From the NCBI GenBank assembly GCA_004565275.1, contig SDOX01000094.1, positions 62,001 to 126,000 of the forward strand: a stretch of 64,000 nt of DNA. The letters run 5' to 3'. Below, piece by piece: positions 39,955 through 61,973 of the stretch (positions within the stretch are counted from its first letter, which is position 1; each line of letters opens with the position of its first letter). The DNA comes from Nannochloropsis salina CCMP1776. Its lineage: Eukaryota > Sar > Eustigmatophyceae > Eustigmatales > Monodopsidaceae. The position numbers and the translations under genes are program-made. Below the pieces are notes generated by a model, which worked only from the letters and a program-made list of their open reading frames with translations, was not told where the DNA came from and searched no databases.

Positions 39955-42373
39955 TCATTTGCTTGCCCTGTCATCCTTATGCACGACTACTGCATAGGCC
40001 CGCGGGACTCCCCTCCCCTCTCCCCCCTCCATCTTGGTCTCTTCCTCCCACCCTCCCCCCGTCCCCACCCCCGCCAATGAGCCCTCCCTCGCCTCTCTAT
40101 ACCCCTCTCCCACGTTCCCCCCCCCTTGCCCCCACGCCCTCCTGCCTACCCATCCCTCTGACTCCGGATGCAACGGGGCAGTGGGCGCAGGCAGGGCGGG
40201 AGAGGGTGGGGGTGGGGCACCCCCCCTGGCGGGGGCCGTGGCCGGCGGCACGGGGTAGAGCAAAAGCTGCTGCAGCGTCGCCGTCAGTGCCTCCGTGGCC
40301 CGACTGCTGGCCGACTCTGGGGAAGGGAGGGGACGACGGGGAGGAGGCGCAAAGGGAGGCACGGACGCGGGGGGGACGTCCACACTCATGTCCGGAGCTG
40401 CTGCGCCCGTGGCTGCCACCGTGCCTGGGTCCATGTGGACGCCCCTGTTCCTTTCCCTCCGTGGATTTCGGGGGGGGTGGGAGGGAGGGGGAGGGAGGGA
40501 GGACGGGAGGGAGGACGGGGGGACGGTGAAGCAGGGGTATGTCACGGCGTAGAGTACAAAGCTGAGGGGGAATGTGAGCAGAAAGCCCATGGTGCCAAAA
40601 AGTTCGATGGCGGCGATCGTGCTCTGGGACCCTGCTCCTGCTCCGTATCCCCCTGTGCTGGCGGGGAGGGTCGTCCGCCACAGGGAAGGGAATCCAAACA
40701 CCGCCCCTCCTGCCAGCACGGCCAGAATCGCTCCCATGTTTACCCCCCCCTTGTGCAACCGCGGCGTCGTTTTGTACAGATAATGGACGGGGAGGACGGC
40801 TTGTCGTACCCAAAAAATGTCCGAGAGCAAAACCCCGACCAGGGCCCCGCCGACAAGGCCCGAGAGCAGGGACCCCCCGACAAAGGCCGAGCCACCGTGG
40901 GCGTCTCGGCTTGTCACCACGGTGGAAGGCGCGAGGAGGACGAAGAGGAAGGCGCCAAAACCCATGCACCCGCCTGCCACGCCCGTATTGGCAAGAAGCT
41001 GAGGTCCCAAGACGTTGCTCAGGGCGTGGGCCCCCGGGAGGAGGTAGCCGACAACGGCCGTGTGAAGCGTGGCAACCCAGAGTCCGATCCCTCCCAGCAA
41101 GGCCATGTAGGGCGGGGAAAGGAAAGAAAGGAGGGCGGTGGGCGTGATCACCACCGTGCTCCAACCGCGCGCGACGGTGCCCGTGAGGAAGCAGCCCAGA
41201 AAGGTGGTGAGAGGGGAGAGGAGGGGGAAAACCACCAGGAGGGCATGGCGCGGAGACGGGCGCAGACTACACCATCGACTCAAGTCGCCCCAGCCAAGGA
41301 GGAGGGGGGTCGTCCACGCGCCCAGACCGAGGAGGACGGCGAGGGGCAGGGAGGTGTAGAGAGGGAAGGGAGGGGAGGGAGGGAGGGAGGCAGGGAGTAC
41401 CTTTGCGTCGTAGGCGTGGAGCCCGGTGTCGAAGCCGAGGAGGCGGTAGGCCCATATTCCCAGACCCGCGTAGAAGGCAAGGAGGAGGGTGCTGAGGACG
41501 GGCGCGAGGGAACGAAGCGCCTGGATTTTCCCAAACACGTGCAAGGAGACGAGGAGGAGGAAGCTGCTGGCCAGGCAGAGAAGGCTGAGGAGGGAGGATT
41601 GGCCGGGGGGCAGGAAGGAAGGAGGGATCGGGTTCCACGTGGCGACGGAGGGACGGAAGCGCGTAATTCCCTCTCGGAGGCCCTCGGTCGCAATGCTTAG
41701 GAGCCACGCCGTCCATGGGAAAGCCAGGACTAGGTGGAGGAGGGAGAAAAATTTCGCGCCAAAAATTCCAAAGCTGGTCCGGGCAGAAACACAGAGAGGG
41801 ATGCCGTACTTGCTGGGGGCGTGCATGGTCAAGGCGGTAAGGCCGGCGGCAAGGAGGGCAGAGAGGAAGGAAGCCAGGACGGACCATTTCCAGGTGAGGC
41901 CAAGGTGGGACCCCAGGACCCCCAGCATGTAGGCTGGAGGGGAGAGGGCGAGGGAGGAGGCGAGCCAAAAGTACTGTCGTGCGGATAGGATGGCGACGTC
42001 GTGGGTGAGAAGGGGCAGGGTATGGTGAGGGATGTGTCGGGAATGCGCCAGCGGGGCGTCGGCAGGACGCCATCCTCGGCATGGCATCTCTCCCCCCGGA
42101 TGGTTTTACCCTAATTCCTGTACTTACATCGTTGAATCGCCAACTCTTCTCCTGCAAACCCACAGGATCCAAGGACGACGCAGGGGCCAGCACTACTTCC
42201 GTCGTCGGGGCTGGATGCGACCATCTTCTTCTGTATGAGGCCCTTTCCCCCTCCACTTGCTGCCCTTGGGAGGCCCTTCCACGTGTCTGGGCACTTCGGG
42301 ATGGGGACTGTCGACCGCACCTGTGCATGTTACCTACGCAATGCAAGTCGCCGTCGTCCCAGTCGTCATCCAC
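39955..42373 (-). CDS. NCS1-family (cytosine/purine/allantoin type) permease
   Basis: Two exons, 42373-42128 and 41973-39955, give about 754 residues; the start Met is uncertain. NCS1 carriers import nucleobases, allantoin, hydantoins or related vitamins with a proton or sodium ion. About twelve membrane helices are visible. The family-typical KYGIPLCVSARTSFG segment precedes LAFPWTAWLL. Later come WTTPLLLGWGDLSRW and LLSDIFWVRQAVLP with HYLYKTTPRLHKGGVN. The substrate cannot be read from sequence. After the last helix is a tail of about 180 residues, rich in Pro, Ser and Gly and much longer than usual. The acceptor at 41974 was chosen because the nearer AG sites would leave a 40-base intron. 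The large antisense frame over 40168-41700 is a GC-rich shadow. Confidence 0.85.
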
Positions 42374-55730: not shown

Positions 55731-58700
55731 TCATTGTAGCGACTTATCCTTTTTATCGCGAATATCACTACGGCTGCCTTCAAGAGCAGCGCCGCTGTCG
55801 TCTTGAGGACTGGCGATGCGCCCTATACTCCGTTCCCATTGCTCGTCCAGGGCATGCAAATGATCGTGTGCCAAGGCCAGCAAAGCAGGGACAGCAGTCT
55901 CTGTCCGCAAAACTCTGGGTCCAAGCGTGATTTGCTGTAAAGGCGATTTGATGCATTGATGCGTGACTTTCCATTGCCAAAGAGACAGCTGCCGATTCGC
56001 ATTTCAAATTGATACTAGGAAGACTTTTCAATGTGAGAGACTTCACGCTCAAAGCTCAATCATAATTGTAGGCAAAAGTAAGGGTGTCGTACCTGAAAAC
56101 CATGCTCTCGGAAGAGCTCCAGCTCATAGGGTTCCTACGTTACGAGACAGGAAAGGGTTAGGGTTAGGGTTAAGGGTTCCTACGTTACGAGACAGGAAAT
56201 ATCAAGAGAACGAAACAACATAAACACATTAGAAATCACAACTCGTATGTATGCCGCGCAAGTAGAGCAGATGAACCACCTTCTCAGCAGCTCCACTCTC
56301 TTTTTCCTCCCTCAAGCCCTCGGTCGCACCTCCCATCCTGATTCGGGTCCTATCGCCAAAAGGAGCCGCGGTTGTCCCACCGCTGTTTCGCCTTTAAGTC
56401 CATTCTTTGGGACTGGAAACGGCCAAGAGAGCTGACGAAAACGTGTATCCACGCCCACAGAGTCATGTAGGGCTCGAAAAGGGTGGGAGAGGACACGGAG
56501 CGTGTGTTGGAAGGAGGAGGAGGCGGAGGGAGGGGGGGAGGAAGGGTACAGGACTTCCAGCTTATCGCTTAGGAAGCGCTTCATGGAAGAAGATGAAGAG
56601 AAGCATTTGGGGGAAGTTGGAGGGGGGGGGGATGGAAAGCGTCCGTTTGGTCAGAGGCCATGAATCACGAACTTCCACGTGCTGCAGAAGTTGAGATCGG
56701 AAACGGCGCACATAACTGAGGACGGTGCCCACATTCCCGACAGCATCTCACCTTGAGACGCCGATCGATGATGATATCGGGGACGATGGTGTCGCCGGCC
56801 TGTGAAATAGATTCCACGGTGCTTGCGTGAGATACAAACACAAAAAATGGGGCGAACGAAGAGGAACCGAAGATGGAGCCAGGACAGCTTCCATGAAAGT
56901 GAAAGAGGGTTTTTACATAGGAGGGAAGGATGTGGCATTCGATGGTCTCATTTGCATACCTGGCTGAGGCCTTCTACCACGAGTTCTCGCAGCGCTTGCT
57001 GTGAAGAGAAACCGTTTAAATGAGAGTCAATGTTAACGTCATCATGGGAATATGTCAATCCATTCATGTACGAACGAGACTACACATATGTATGCCTATG
57101 TGTGTGTTTTCTTGTCCCAAAAAGGAGTGAACAACAATATGAGGCGACACACGGGAGAAATGAAGCTTTCGTTCACTGAACAACAATAATAAACATACAT
57201 ATATATATTTATATATCTATGTTTATAGGCACATAAATGTATATACGATGCTTGATCCATGTACCGAGTCCTGTATTGAGTCTCACTCAGACCTTCTGGC
57301 GGCTTGGAAAAGGACTCACCGGTTCTCGCAACAAATGGGAGCCCCAGTAGCTCTTCTCCACCTGGACGACCCCGGACCACGGCAAGAGAGCAGACAAGGG
57401 CGAAAAAGAGAGGGGGATACAAGTAATGGGTAAGCAGGCCTTGTCCTTTTCTTTCTTTCTCTTCCCTCCCGAGCGCGAGGAAAAATGACCGTCGATCGAT
57501 TATCAATTTCACCCGTGTTTACCGGTACAGAAATGGATGCGACAAAGCGATCCTCCCAGCGTCACGGTCTCTCTTCCATGCCCCTCCGCCCTACCCCCTT
57601 ACCTTCTTCGCGGACGTGATCAGCAGTCGACCAACCCCCAGGGCGACCATGTGGGGAATGATACGTTCCATCCTCAAGGGGGCTTGCATGGCGAGGAGGA
57701 CGTCGACACTGAAAAAAGAAAGGAGGAAAAAAGGGCGCCGGGAGTGAGTTCGCGACGGGAGAAGATGGGTGCTATTCTGCTCTTTTGACTGGTGTGTCCT
57801 GAGGTATACTAAAGGAGGACCTGGGAGTAAGTAGAGGCGAGCAAAGAACTTGATACGAGGAAGCATCCCCTCAGGAAATGGGGCCGTGGGGCTTGACATT
57901 CACACAGCAGTCCTCAACCCCGCACAAAGACCTTATCCCGTCCCTCTCTTCCCATGCACGCGTCCGTCATCCCCTCCCAAGTCGACAAGGTAGCTACCGT
58001 GGGCGCAGTGCTTCGCTGGGAGGTGTTAAGAGGGGGAGGGAGGGTCCCATAGCCAGGTGCAGCTCGCCTCCCTCTGTCCACTCTACGACGGCCCGGTCGT
58101 TCCTGTGTACGTTCCAGGGAGGGAGATTGATAAAAGACATGCGCTCGAAGACTTGTCCTCTCCCCGTCCGATGGCATCCATTCTTTTACCCTTTGGGGAC
58201 TCACCGCCCTCCGTTCAAAACGCCCACGCGCACTTCGTCTCCTGTCTTGGCACGCAGGACCTGTGTAAGACCCGTCCAACCCGGAGGTAAGTCAATTTAA
58301 AAGCACTGTAGGTAAGTGCTTCCCGGTTCGTGTGAGAATAAGCCGAGAGGGAGGATTCTTCCCCCCCACCCTACCTTCCGAACATGCTGCGCCCGGGCAT
58401 CGTCTTGCCCTAACCTGACAATGGCCGATTCCTCCCCTTCTCCTCGTCCGTCCTGCGGATTTCTCAAGGTCAGATTAATTTCTTCTGCCTCGAATAGGAG
58501 ACGATTGAGCCGCATGGGACTGGACCTCGAAATAGACCTCCCGCAATGAGGGAAACTCGCCCAGTGAGATGCTGTTCGCGGTGGCATCTTCCTCTTTCCA
58601 CAGAGTGAGCCGACGAAAGAGTACGAGAGCGATGATAGGAATGCCGAGCGTCCGTTACATTGATACATACTCATGCACGTGCGAGGACCTGTGACGATTA

Positions 58701-58932: not shown

Positions 58933-59564
58933 ACGTGACTGACACCGATGCAGCTGCCATACGCTCCAAAACTGTATTTTTTGCGTAGTAATATGCTTTC
59001 ATTGTCACGATTTTTACCAATTGACGCCATAAATTGTCGTGTATGGCTCTTATTTCCTCCCCACGTTTAACCTCCTCCCTTCCAGCAAGCAAGGCGACAG
59101 CCATCAGCAACGTGCCTGTGCAGGTATGGCTTTCCCCCGTCTTTTAACACGCGAAGCTGCGGATTCTCTTCAATCAGACAGTCTATCACCTTCTTTGCAT
59201 TTTTAAAAAAGCGTTTTCATCCATGGCCTAAGCGTTGGTGTATGTTGAGGACTAAAAATATCATCCCTCTTTTATTCCCCTACCTGGCAGGTCAGTGCGT
59301 CCTCTTCTTAACGACGTCTTGTCTCCCCTCTATCAGGTATGAATTGCTTTAAGAAGAATTCTCTTTACTTTTTATTCGTTGTATGATGCATTGGAAAGTG
59401 TGCTTAGGGCGATAGTTCGATTATTGAGGGGTATTGCTGGATTCTATGGCGCGCTCTGGAGCCACGGTCACCTCGTCCTTTTGTCTTGGAACAACCCTCT
59501 ATCTGTCGTTCTTCTGAATTTTTTAGCATAACCCTTCTCTAACAAGTCCTTCATTGTAATAGTG
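58933..59564. other. Divergent intergenic region
   Basis: About 630 bases between the RsmE start (minus) and the KTI12 start (plus). No coding frame is supported; both promoters are expected here. Confidence 0.4.
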
Positions 59565-61973
59565 ATGCCCCTGATCACCATCTGTGGGCAACCAGCGTCG
59601 GGAAAGACGACCTTTGCCCACGGCTTGGTTGAGTACTTGAAAAAGAAGCTGCCAACTCCGTGCAGGCCTGGAAAGGGCAAGGACGAAGAAGACAGGGGCT
59701 CTGCAGTGGTCCTCGTCAATGAGGAAGCACTGCCAGTTTTGAAAGCGGAGGGGTATCGAGGTCGGTGCTGGCGTGGTTAGGACGGGAATTTTACTTGGGG
59801 TGGCTGAAAGATGTGTATGCCTCCTCTTTGTCATCGTTTGCGATGCCAGTACAACATCAATATTTCTAATTAACCAATATATTAATTGCCTCTCTATCCA
59901 CAGATGCTACGGCCGAAAAAATCACCCGCGGGGAGCTCAAGAGCAAGGTGGATCATGCCCTCAACCGTGACACAGTCGTGGTCGTGGACAGCCTGAATTA
60001 CATCAAGGGGTTCCGCTACCAACTGTACTGCATGGCACGTGCCGAGACGACGCAACATTGCGTGGTGCGTGGAAGTTTAGAGCAGATGAGAAGGGATGAG
60101 GGGATGAAGGTGAAGGTTTCAGGGTGGCAAGGACAAGGGAGGGGGTAATCTACGTATCCTGACCCCTACCCAACGATGAAGACGGGCATACGCATTAAAT
60201 TGCGGACAAGTTAACACTCAAGCGCGAGGGTACCGTAAGAACCTTCATCTTGGACGGTCACCGATGCGCCTGCTTTTTTCTTCTTTCCTCTCTCTTGTGG
60301 CGTTGGACAGGTATGGGTCGCCCTTGAACACCAACAAATGGCTCGGGCCTGGAATGAAAGCAGGGAGGACCGCTACCCCCCTGAACTGTACGCAAGGGGG
60401 GGGGGGGGAGGGGAGGCGAAGGGGAATGTGGATGGGGGAAAGGAGGGGCGGATAGAAAGGGAGGAGGTTCCTTGGTGGGAACGCGGGCCTCAAATGCCCA
60501 GACTGGCACGGCCAAGCTTTCCTGACCATCTTGTCCACTGGCTTGCCCCCCCATCCCCCCCCCTCCCTTTCACCACAGCTTCGACGATCTTTGGGGGCGT
60601 TTTGAGGCTCCGGTGGAGGGCAATCGCTGGGACAGGCCGCTCATATGCTACAGTCCCCGTCCGCCCTCGGAGGGGGCGGAGGAAAAGGAGGGTCGAAAAA
60701 GCACGCGGGAGGAGGTGTATCAACAAGTATTAGCCGCAGTAACGGAAGGGAAAGCTCCTGCTGCTGGTCTCTCTACCGCCACGGTAAGAAAGGAGAGGGG
60801 GCCAAAGAGAGAGAGAAGGGGGGGGGAAGGGGGAGAAAGGAGGAGAGTGGGAGGGAGTCAACGGAACGTGTGGTATCGGCCAAGGAGGCTCAAGACGAGG
60901 ACAAAGAGGGCTGGGGTGTGGTAGGTAGGCGTGAGATAGACGGGCGGTTCCCACCCCCCCGACAGTGTTTCTGTTCCGAGATCCTAGAATTCTACCCTTG
61001 CTGCTCCCGAAAGGAAGGAGAAAGGGTGGAAGGCGGGGGTCGATGACGCGGACAGTTGTCAAACTCGGGGCAGAGCAAGGTGCTTCTCGTCGAACGTTTG
61101 ATTACGTTGGACAGGATGTTATCCGTCTTGTCCCAGTCCTTTCCTCTATGCCCATGAGGCAGGGGAGGAAATTCGAGCGACCGGGTCCTAGCAGCTCTCG
61201 CTCTCGCTGAGGGGAAGGCGACAGACTTTACTCACCTCGGTCCCCCCATGCTTTTCCAGTATATCGTTGATCGATTGATCGCACAATCAATACTTTTCTG
61301 GTCTCTTGGTTGATTATACCGGTTCACCTTTTTGTGGCAGTGATCTGTGCATTCCCACGCTCCCTCCCTCCCTCTCTTCATTCTCCTTTCCTCCCTCCAG
61401 GCCCCACGCAACGACGCAGACGCTCTTTACCTCCTGGACCAAGTCACCCAACGCCTCCTATTCTCCATCCTCGAACGGCAAAAAACTTCCATGCCCGGCG
61501 ACATCATTACAGTCCCGGAGGCGCGTACGCCAGTGTGCTTTCGACGGTAATGTTTTCAAAAAGAGAAGGACTGTCTCTCTCCTTTTTTGGACGCTCGACT
61601 GACATGGGACATCAAGTTTCTGGGATCGAAACCTGGTGTAGCTCACGATACGATTTATCATTCTGGGTGAAATATCTTTCTCGCCTGCTCCCTATATCGT
61701 CCATCCATCATTTTTGGGGGTTAAGCACTGCACCTTGAAAACATATGAGTCCTAAATTAAAGCGCCTTGCATCGGGTATACAGGCACGTTGGTCTTCCCG
61801 AACTGAAGAGGCTCCGAAGGCAATTTCTGAAGCAAGCTTCTGACTGGGCCGCTGCCACTTTGGGGGGCGGGGGAGGGGACAAAGAGGGAGGAGAGGAGGT
61901 CGGGAAGGAGGACTCGAGGGAGAGAGCGGTGGGCGATGCATTTGTCCAGTACTTGAATCTGCACACGACGTAG
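59565..61973 (+). CDS. KTI12: KTI12 family P-loop protein (Elongator-associated)
   Basis: Six exons, 59565-59760, 59904-60064, 60311-60387, 60579-60783, 61401-61546 and 61784-61973, encode 324 residues, close to the usual 300. KTI12 is an ATPase that assists the Elongator complex in wobble-uridine modification of tRNA. Visible are the P-loop GQPASGKTT (8-16), TRGELKSKVDHALNRDTVVV followed by DSLNYIKGFRYQLYC (Walker B region), NESREDRYPPEL, GNRWDRPL, and the C-terminal LPELKRLRRQFLKQ with the closing VGDAFVQYLN. An acidic Gly/Glu-rich insert near residues 285-305 is read from a GGGA tract and looks like a lineage-specific loop. Introns hold similar tracts. The start ATG follows a possible splice acceptor (aatag), so a 5' leader intron is possible. 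Confidence 0.9.

Follow-up and report, generated by a model that had tools for sequence, protein, structure and literature searches.

Short stretches of telomeric repeat that lie at internal sites of chromosomes have been described in mammals as short interstitial telomeric sequences (PMC2246262, PMC7215372). These loci carry the species' own repeat at an internal single-copy site, and at some of them the insert is flanked by a direct duplication of the target, for which repair of a staggered break has been proposed. Table 1 of PMC2246262 lists target duplication at 6/130 rodent and 4/25 primate telomeric insertions, and Table 5 of PMC7215372 lists it at 3/66 horse loci, plus 2 among complex changes. 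A related product is known from mouse and human cells, where breaks with complementary 3' overhangs give rise to small tandem duplications through CST-guided Pol alpha-primase (PMC8355091). This class is defined by its dependence on CST, Pol alpha and Ku, and by copies that are linked through end joining with little homology. There, nickase-made overhangs of 43 bp are duplicated after a telomere-type machine fills in both ends and end joining follows; the available part of that paper describes no telomeric insert between the copies. Finally, new introns of Daphnia have direct repeats within or next to them that stem from the repair of staggered breaks (PMC4202315, whose main text holds no word starting with "telomer").

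Here, we describe a locus in an intron of an RsmE-like methyltransferase gene that can be compared with all three systems. Like the mammalian loci, it holds the genome's own telomeric repeat at an internal single-copy site and, from among the changes that end joining typically leaves at a break site (deletion, addition, duplication or none at all), it shows a duplication, of 27 bp. It differs from them in that the host is a eustigmatophyte-type alga, the duplication holds a splice acceptor, and the empty site is a prediction. Two copies of the duplicated sequence are present, as in the CST-Pol alpha product; here, however, they are separated by 18 telomeric bases, and the AGGGTT where they are joined may represent homology. 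In contrast to the Daphnia introns, the intron here would be older than the insert, if the empty-allele prediction holds. Telomeric insertion at break repair with target duplication is a kind of event that is already known, and the RsmE intron site is a clean further example of it.

The window, i.e., the whole stretch of 64,000 nucleotides that was analysed, corresponds to C97:62001-126000 in an assembly of 103 contigs. That TTAGGG would be found at the chromosome ends of this organism had been set as a check by an earlier reading of the sequence alone, and the arrays indeed run up to contig ends, for example in C1, C14, C23, C54, C60, C72, C76 and C95, so that the units of the insert match the repeat at the genome's own chromosome ends. 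The same motif has been reported for the Monodopsis and Vischeria assemblies and for M. gaditana B-31 (PMC8570151), a source that also gives the main spliced-leader sequence of Microchloropsis gaditana CCMP1894. As 34 of the 40 letters of this leader have 11 exact matches in the genome, we infer a Microchloropsis-type eustigmatophyte as the host species. A search for the telomerase domain PF12009 gave no match in the genome and likewise none in control genomes, making this search uninformative.

Several observations on telomeric sequence elsewhere in the genome are recorded here in their own right. At the outermost telomere ends in L036, L038, L041, L044 and L045, TTAGGG gives way to TTAGG-type units, and in L039 to TAGG-type units, which are perhaps real variants or perhaps a read artefact. 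Inside large contigs, L021 (C78:842954-843972) and L022 (C86:559304-560322) hold short arrays placed head to head, GGGTTA units being followed directly by TAACCC units; head-to-head telomeric stretches also occur at a complex horse insertion (PMC7215372). Two loci that both carry telomeric units, L030 and L081, can be aligned over 218 nt (72% identity) and are perhaps copies of a dispersed repeat carrying telomeric sequence. In L029, L033 and L037, a donor-like word, GTGAGT or GTAAGA, precedes the array by a few bases, and these arrays are perhaps further candidate intronic insertions.

The insert itself lies well within its contig, at base 118155 of 140,581 in C97, and its features are collected in the table below. 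The sequence-only reading had placed perfect 27-base direct repeats around three GGGTTA units inside an RsmE intron, and these coordinates proved exact: the two copies are 100% identical, offset by 45 nt, and both directly abut the array, whose letters are GGGTTAGGGTTAGGGTTA. A search of the window with GGGTTAGGGTTA gave 2 overlapping matches, found only at the insert, where 0.01 would be expected from dinucleotide shuffles, while the genome contains the telomeric 18-mer 1031 times, for the most part as overlapping matches within long arrays (reversed control, 0). When repeats were sought from 14-base exact seeds with a spacing of at most 150, the 27-mer pair was the window's only direct-repeat family of at least 18 nt outside low-complexity sequence; TRF reports further two-copy repeats in the window, which are imperfect (e.g., 40840-40891, at 84%). 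The identity of 27/27 bases only bounds the divergence between the copies to below about 10% (binomial estimate, 95%), and the insertion need not be recent. At the left junction, one base (A) is in telomeric register. The 27-mer itself opens with the telomere-like word AGGGTT, which at the right junction is one base out of telomeric register; this junction (TTA, then AGGGTT) is compatible with simple end joining in which no more than one base is shared. RNA families and tRNAs were also sought in the 64-kb window, and none were found.

Features of the RsmE-like gene and of the telomeric insert in its eighth intron (window coordinates).
Feature	Position	Strand	Remarks
Whole RsmE-like gene model	55731..58515	-	10 hand-placed exons, 343 aa, PF04452
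Exon 8	56330..56578	-	last residues GPESGWE, just before intron 8
Intron 8	56135..56329	-	195 nt; 150 nt in predicted empty allele
Exon 9 (EPYELELFREHGFQ)	56093..56134	-	directly after proximal acceptor
First 27-bp direct repeat copy	56128..56154	.	proximal 3' splice site within; minus-strand intron end 56135
Three telomeric GGGTTA units	56155..56172	+	sense strand of the gene is C-rich CCCTAA
Second 27-bp copy, identical to first	56173..56199	.	distal 3' splice site; minus-strand intron would end 56180
Two CTAAC motifs, candidate branch points (inferred)	56163-56167, 56157-56161	- (sense)	start at -33 and -27 from proximal intron end

The assignment of the host gene is based on a hand-spliced model in which all nine introns follow the GT...AG rule and the exons join into an open frame of 343 aa; introns other than intron 8 measure 102-321 nt. 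The spliced protein matches PF04452 with 89 bits (curated cut-off 23.9, E=3.3e-25), which, with the insert lying inside intron 8, bears out the location given by the earlier reading. It also matches 8 PDB sequences, among them RsmE structures such as 5o95, the best match (E=3.5e-8). The alignment to 5o95 spans the joint of exons 8 and 9 (GPESGWE-EPYELELFREHGFQ) with one extra residue relative to 5o95, which speaks for the proximal acceptor being the one in use. A search of the genome with TIGR00046 did not find this gene, perhaps owing to its short exons. The same search gave a second RsmE-like gene (L069, C2:131121-131663, E=1.7e-20) without internal stops, which is perhaps an organelle-targeted paralogue. 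A scan of the RsmE-like protein against a collection of genome contigs gave 40 pattern matches and no confirmed relative, and a 22-mer searched in a collection of viral contigs gave 0 matches. On the + strand of the window, at 59532-59780, lies a KTI12-like partial gene (PF08433, E=1.9e-9).

Starting from what is directly observed, namely the anatomy of the site, the telomere repeat of the genome and the gene model, we consider it fairly probable that the locus arose in one double-strand-break repair event, consisting of a staggered cut, telomere addition to one end, fill-in of both overhangs, and end joining. In an empty ancestor, a break in intron 8 with a stagger of 27 nt would have produced complementary overhangs that included the 3' splice site. 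Telomerase requires a 3' end, and as the presumed source of the repeat it would have added three GGGTTA units, or 18 bases, to the 3' end ...GGAAA. Both overhangs would then have been copied, for which CST-Pol alpha-primase, the telomere-type fill-in machine, is a candidate that would act on 3' overhangs, the polarity presumed here. Joining of the near-blunt ends would have left one 27-bp copy on each side of the 18 telomeric bases, thereby doubling the acceptor. In other words, a single insertion-with-duplication step would suffice, whereas a plain tandem duplication of a 45-bp unit would need a further deletion. The order of these steps may be reflected in the overhang tip, GAGACAGGAAA. CST-Pol alpha-primase primes opposite pyrimidines, and a 15-purine tip disfavours near-full-length fill-in (PMC8355091); the tip here is purine-rich (10/11) as well as shorter than that 15-purine tip, and T residues of telomeric units added past it would supply priming sites, which fits telomere addition before fill-in. 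A transposon with target-site duplication was rejected as a source, as only 18 telomeric bases, and no element ends or genes, lie between the copies.

Among the observations that count against this repair scheme is the AGGGTT exactly at the start of the duplication, which is not predicted by plain blunt joining. It is the centre of a serious rival explanation, which we nevertheless regard as unlikely, in which a telomere-extended 3' end paired with the AGGGTT 27 bp behind it, either on the other end or on the sister chromatid, and copied these 27 bp a second time. The duplication would then result from a template switch guided by microhomology, i.e., from re-entry at a telomere-like word, and not from a staggered cut. 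Telomeric hexamers are rare, with 53 places on the + strand among the 64,000 positions of the window, which makes their coincidence with the duplication start suggestive, although this argument is post hoc. The template switch also requires that the added repeat contain an extra A (TTAAGGG). Similar words do occur elsewhere, GGGTTAAGG in L009 and L088 and GGGTAAGGG beside arrays in L054, L055 and L066, and AGG follows 3/41 of the array ends with TTA plus a non-G base in 78 loci (L009, L088 and L024, which is the RsmE intron site itself); against this stands the exact word GGGTTAAGGGTT, found in the examined loci only at the RsmE intron site (L024, L067, L068). Independently of the origin of the duplication, an extra or displaced A before GGG was observed in arrays of L009, L024, L054, L055, L066 and L088, and is perhaps a slip of the telomere-making enzyme.

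Still less probable, in our estimate, is that a ready-made telomeric fragment was captured, or an internal array copied, at a staggered break with no telomerase acting there. Such sequence is abundant in the genome, as the 1031 overlapping 18-mer matches attest, and a telomerase-like bias in start phase was not strong among 39 isolated arrays (GTTA in 10/39, the other five starts in 4-7 each), which is in line with capture and counts against the repair scheme with telomerase. Yet the insert consists of whole units with no subtelomeric flank, and at the empty sites of the mammalian loci the bases that stand in register with the insert are non-random, an argument for telomerase in that system (PMC2246262). 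That the structure is an artefact of assembly or sequencing, or that it arose by later minisatellite slippage, is very improbable, considering that the 21-nt core of the 27-mer occurs at only these two places in the 26.5-Mb genome, even with up to 2 mismatches allowed, and that slippage would give whole 45-bp units, whereas the array consists of one 45-bp unit plus 27 bp.

To place the locus among the other telomeric arrays of the genome, we surveyed the flanks of such arrays for direct repeats. Six patterns for right-hand array ends (at least 3 units, then a non-telomeric base) gave 64 places, and the 58 loci for arrays of at least 3 units hold 72 arrays. Of these, 33/72 were left out because of flanks shorter than 150 bases, N runs or telomeric flanks, leaving 39 isolated arrays. 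A two-unit search, which covered arrays ending in TTA then a non-G base (one of six end phases), gave 43 places, 16 of which were already covered; 20 of the other 27 were taken, the remaining 7 being subterminal, inside covered loci, or head-to-head partners. As one two-unit locus was left out for too short a flank (L079) and another gave two arrays (L081), 20 two-unit arrays were added, for a total of 59.

The sequence-only reading was right in counting exactly three units, but this number is not special, as 37/39 isolated arrays of at least 3 units are 18-39 nt long and 2/39 are longer. The long duplication is the exception: the longest exact direct repeat between 50-nt flanks was 3-8 nt in 38/39 isolated arrays and 26 nt at the RsmE intron site (27 when counting the A that is also telomeric). 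For repeats anchored at the array, telomere-like matches were filtered out and 3420 cross pairs served as control. The RsmE intron site then scored 26, L072 scored 10.5 (12/13 bases) and L035 matched at 7/7 bases. At a score of at least 10.5, 2/59 arrays were found (the RsmE intron site and L072) versus 0.10 expected; at 7 or more, 3/59 versus 0.74; and at 6 or more, 4/59 versus 1.7. When the telomere-like filter was omitted, 2/59 arrays reached 9 (control fraction 0.0087, about 0.5 expected) and 10/59 reached 5 (control fraction 0.075, about 4.4 expected), and in an un-anchored test 5/59 came up to the 95% level of the control (about 3 expected). Many high-scoring controls had degenerate telomeric or pyrimidine-rich flanks, as judged by eye. 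In L072 (C14:534245-534857), a two-unit array lies between TCTAAGTTAAAAC and TCTAAGATAAAAC, which match at 12/13 positions, and which likely mark a second, older insertion with target duplication, although some cross pairs reach or pass its score (best control pair, 11.5). The weaker candidates L035 and L039 prove little. By their flanks, then, one case among the 59 arrays is certain and one likely.

A rule that telomeric arrays in this genome bear long duplications was thus rejected, with a long exact one in 1/39 isolated arrays of at least 3 units. As a long perfect duplication is found in only 1/59 arrays overall, staggered insertion with duplication is not the usual route here. The structure had been called the expected scar of telomere addition at a staggered break; it does belong to a described class that has been ascribed to such breaks, but "expected" is too strong, since most of the 59 arrays have no detectable duplication, as is also the case at mammalian loci. 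The mammalian duplication counts and the 1-2/59 found here are of the same order, though not strictly comparable, as the former rest on empty sites and the latter on flanks alone.

The consequences of the insertion for splicing would follow from the doubled acceptor. Both copies carry the same 3' splice site, so that exon 9 could start at 56134 (proximal) or 56179 (distal), and the earlier arithmetic was correct in that the acceptors lie 45 nt apart in the same frame, with TAG as the fifteenth added codon. Splicing to the proximal acceptor preserves the frame of exon 9, and splicing to the distal one would lengthen the exon by 45 nt, or 15 codons, the last of them a stop. This in-frame TAG is no independent oddity, because it arises from a phase-0 intron that ends in TAG and an insertion of 45 nt, a multiple of three. 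Alternative use of the distal site could give a poison isoform. As the last 20 intron bases are identical at both acceptors, the locus forms a natural contest between native and telomeric upstream contexts. Upstream of the distal acceptor, the native sequence (..GTTCTCTTGATATTTCC..) is fully retained; it is also that of the predicted empty allele, in which words of the loose branch-point consensus YTNAY start at -53, -45 and -26. At the proximal acceptor, only the 20 duplicated intron bases are native, and the telomeric C-strand lies upstream of them. If acceptors were chosen by simple scanning, the distal one, which gives the poison form, would have the advantage.

The telomeric strand upstream of the proximal site may, however, supply a branch point of its own, as it contains two CTAAC motifs as well as a TTAAC at -39, and no further AG occurs between the last CTAAC and the proximal splice site. 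Among the other introns of this gene, numbers 1, 2, 3, 5 and 6 have YTNAY words with starts between -31 and -40; in intron 7 such a word begins at -19 and in intron 9 solely at -7, and the last 60 bases of intron 4 hold none. Assuming a CTAAC-like branch point in the host organism, we tentatively raise the rather doubtful possibility that the telomeric C-strand acts as a ready-made acceptor module, in which the native branch-point context stays with the poison acceptor while the productive one would depend on the CTAAC and pyrimidine tract of (CCCTAA)n.

A search of the open-licence literature for intronic telomeric repeats in connection with branch points and splicing gave a review on simple repeats, and one for interstitial telomeric repeats under the genus name Nannochloropsis found no paper; in algae, such repeats are already in print for Chlamydomonas (PMC6549138). 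Whether intronic telomeric repeats affect splicing is a question raised in PMC7215372, of which this locus offers a concrete test, and for close relatives of the host, RNA reads are public and a long-read assembly exists (PMC8570151). A probable telomere-repeat repair scar of the type described in mammals and other vertebrates is now found in a compact algal genome. If the proposed role of the telomeric strand is true, break repair with telomeric repeats would both break and rescue splicing at once, leaving the gene with a built-in choice between a productive and a poison transcript.
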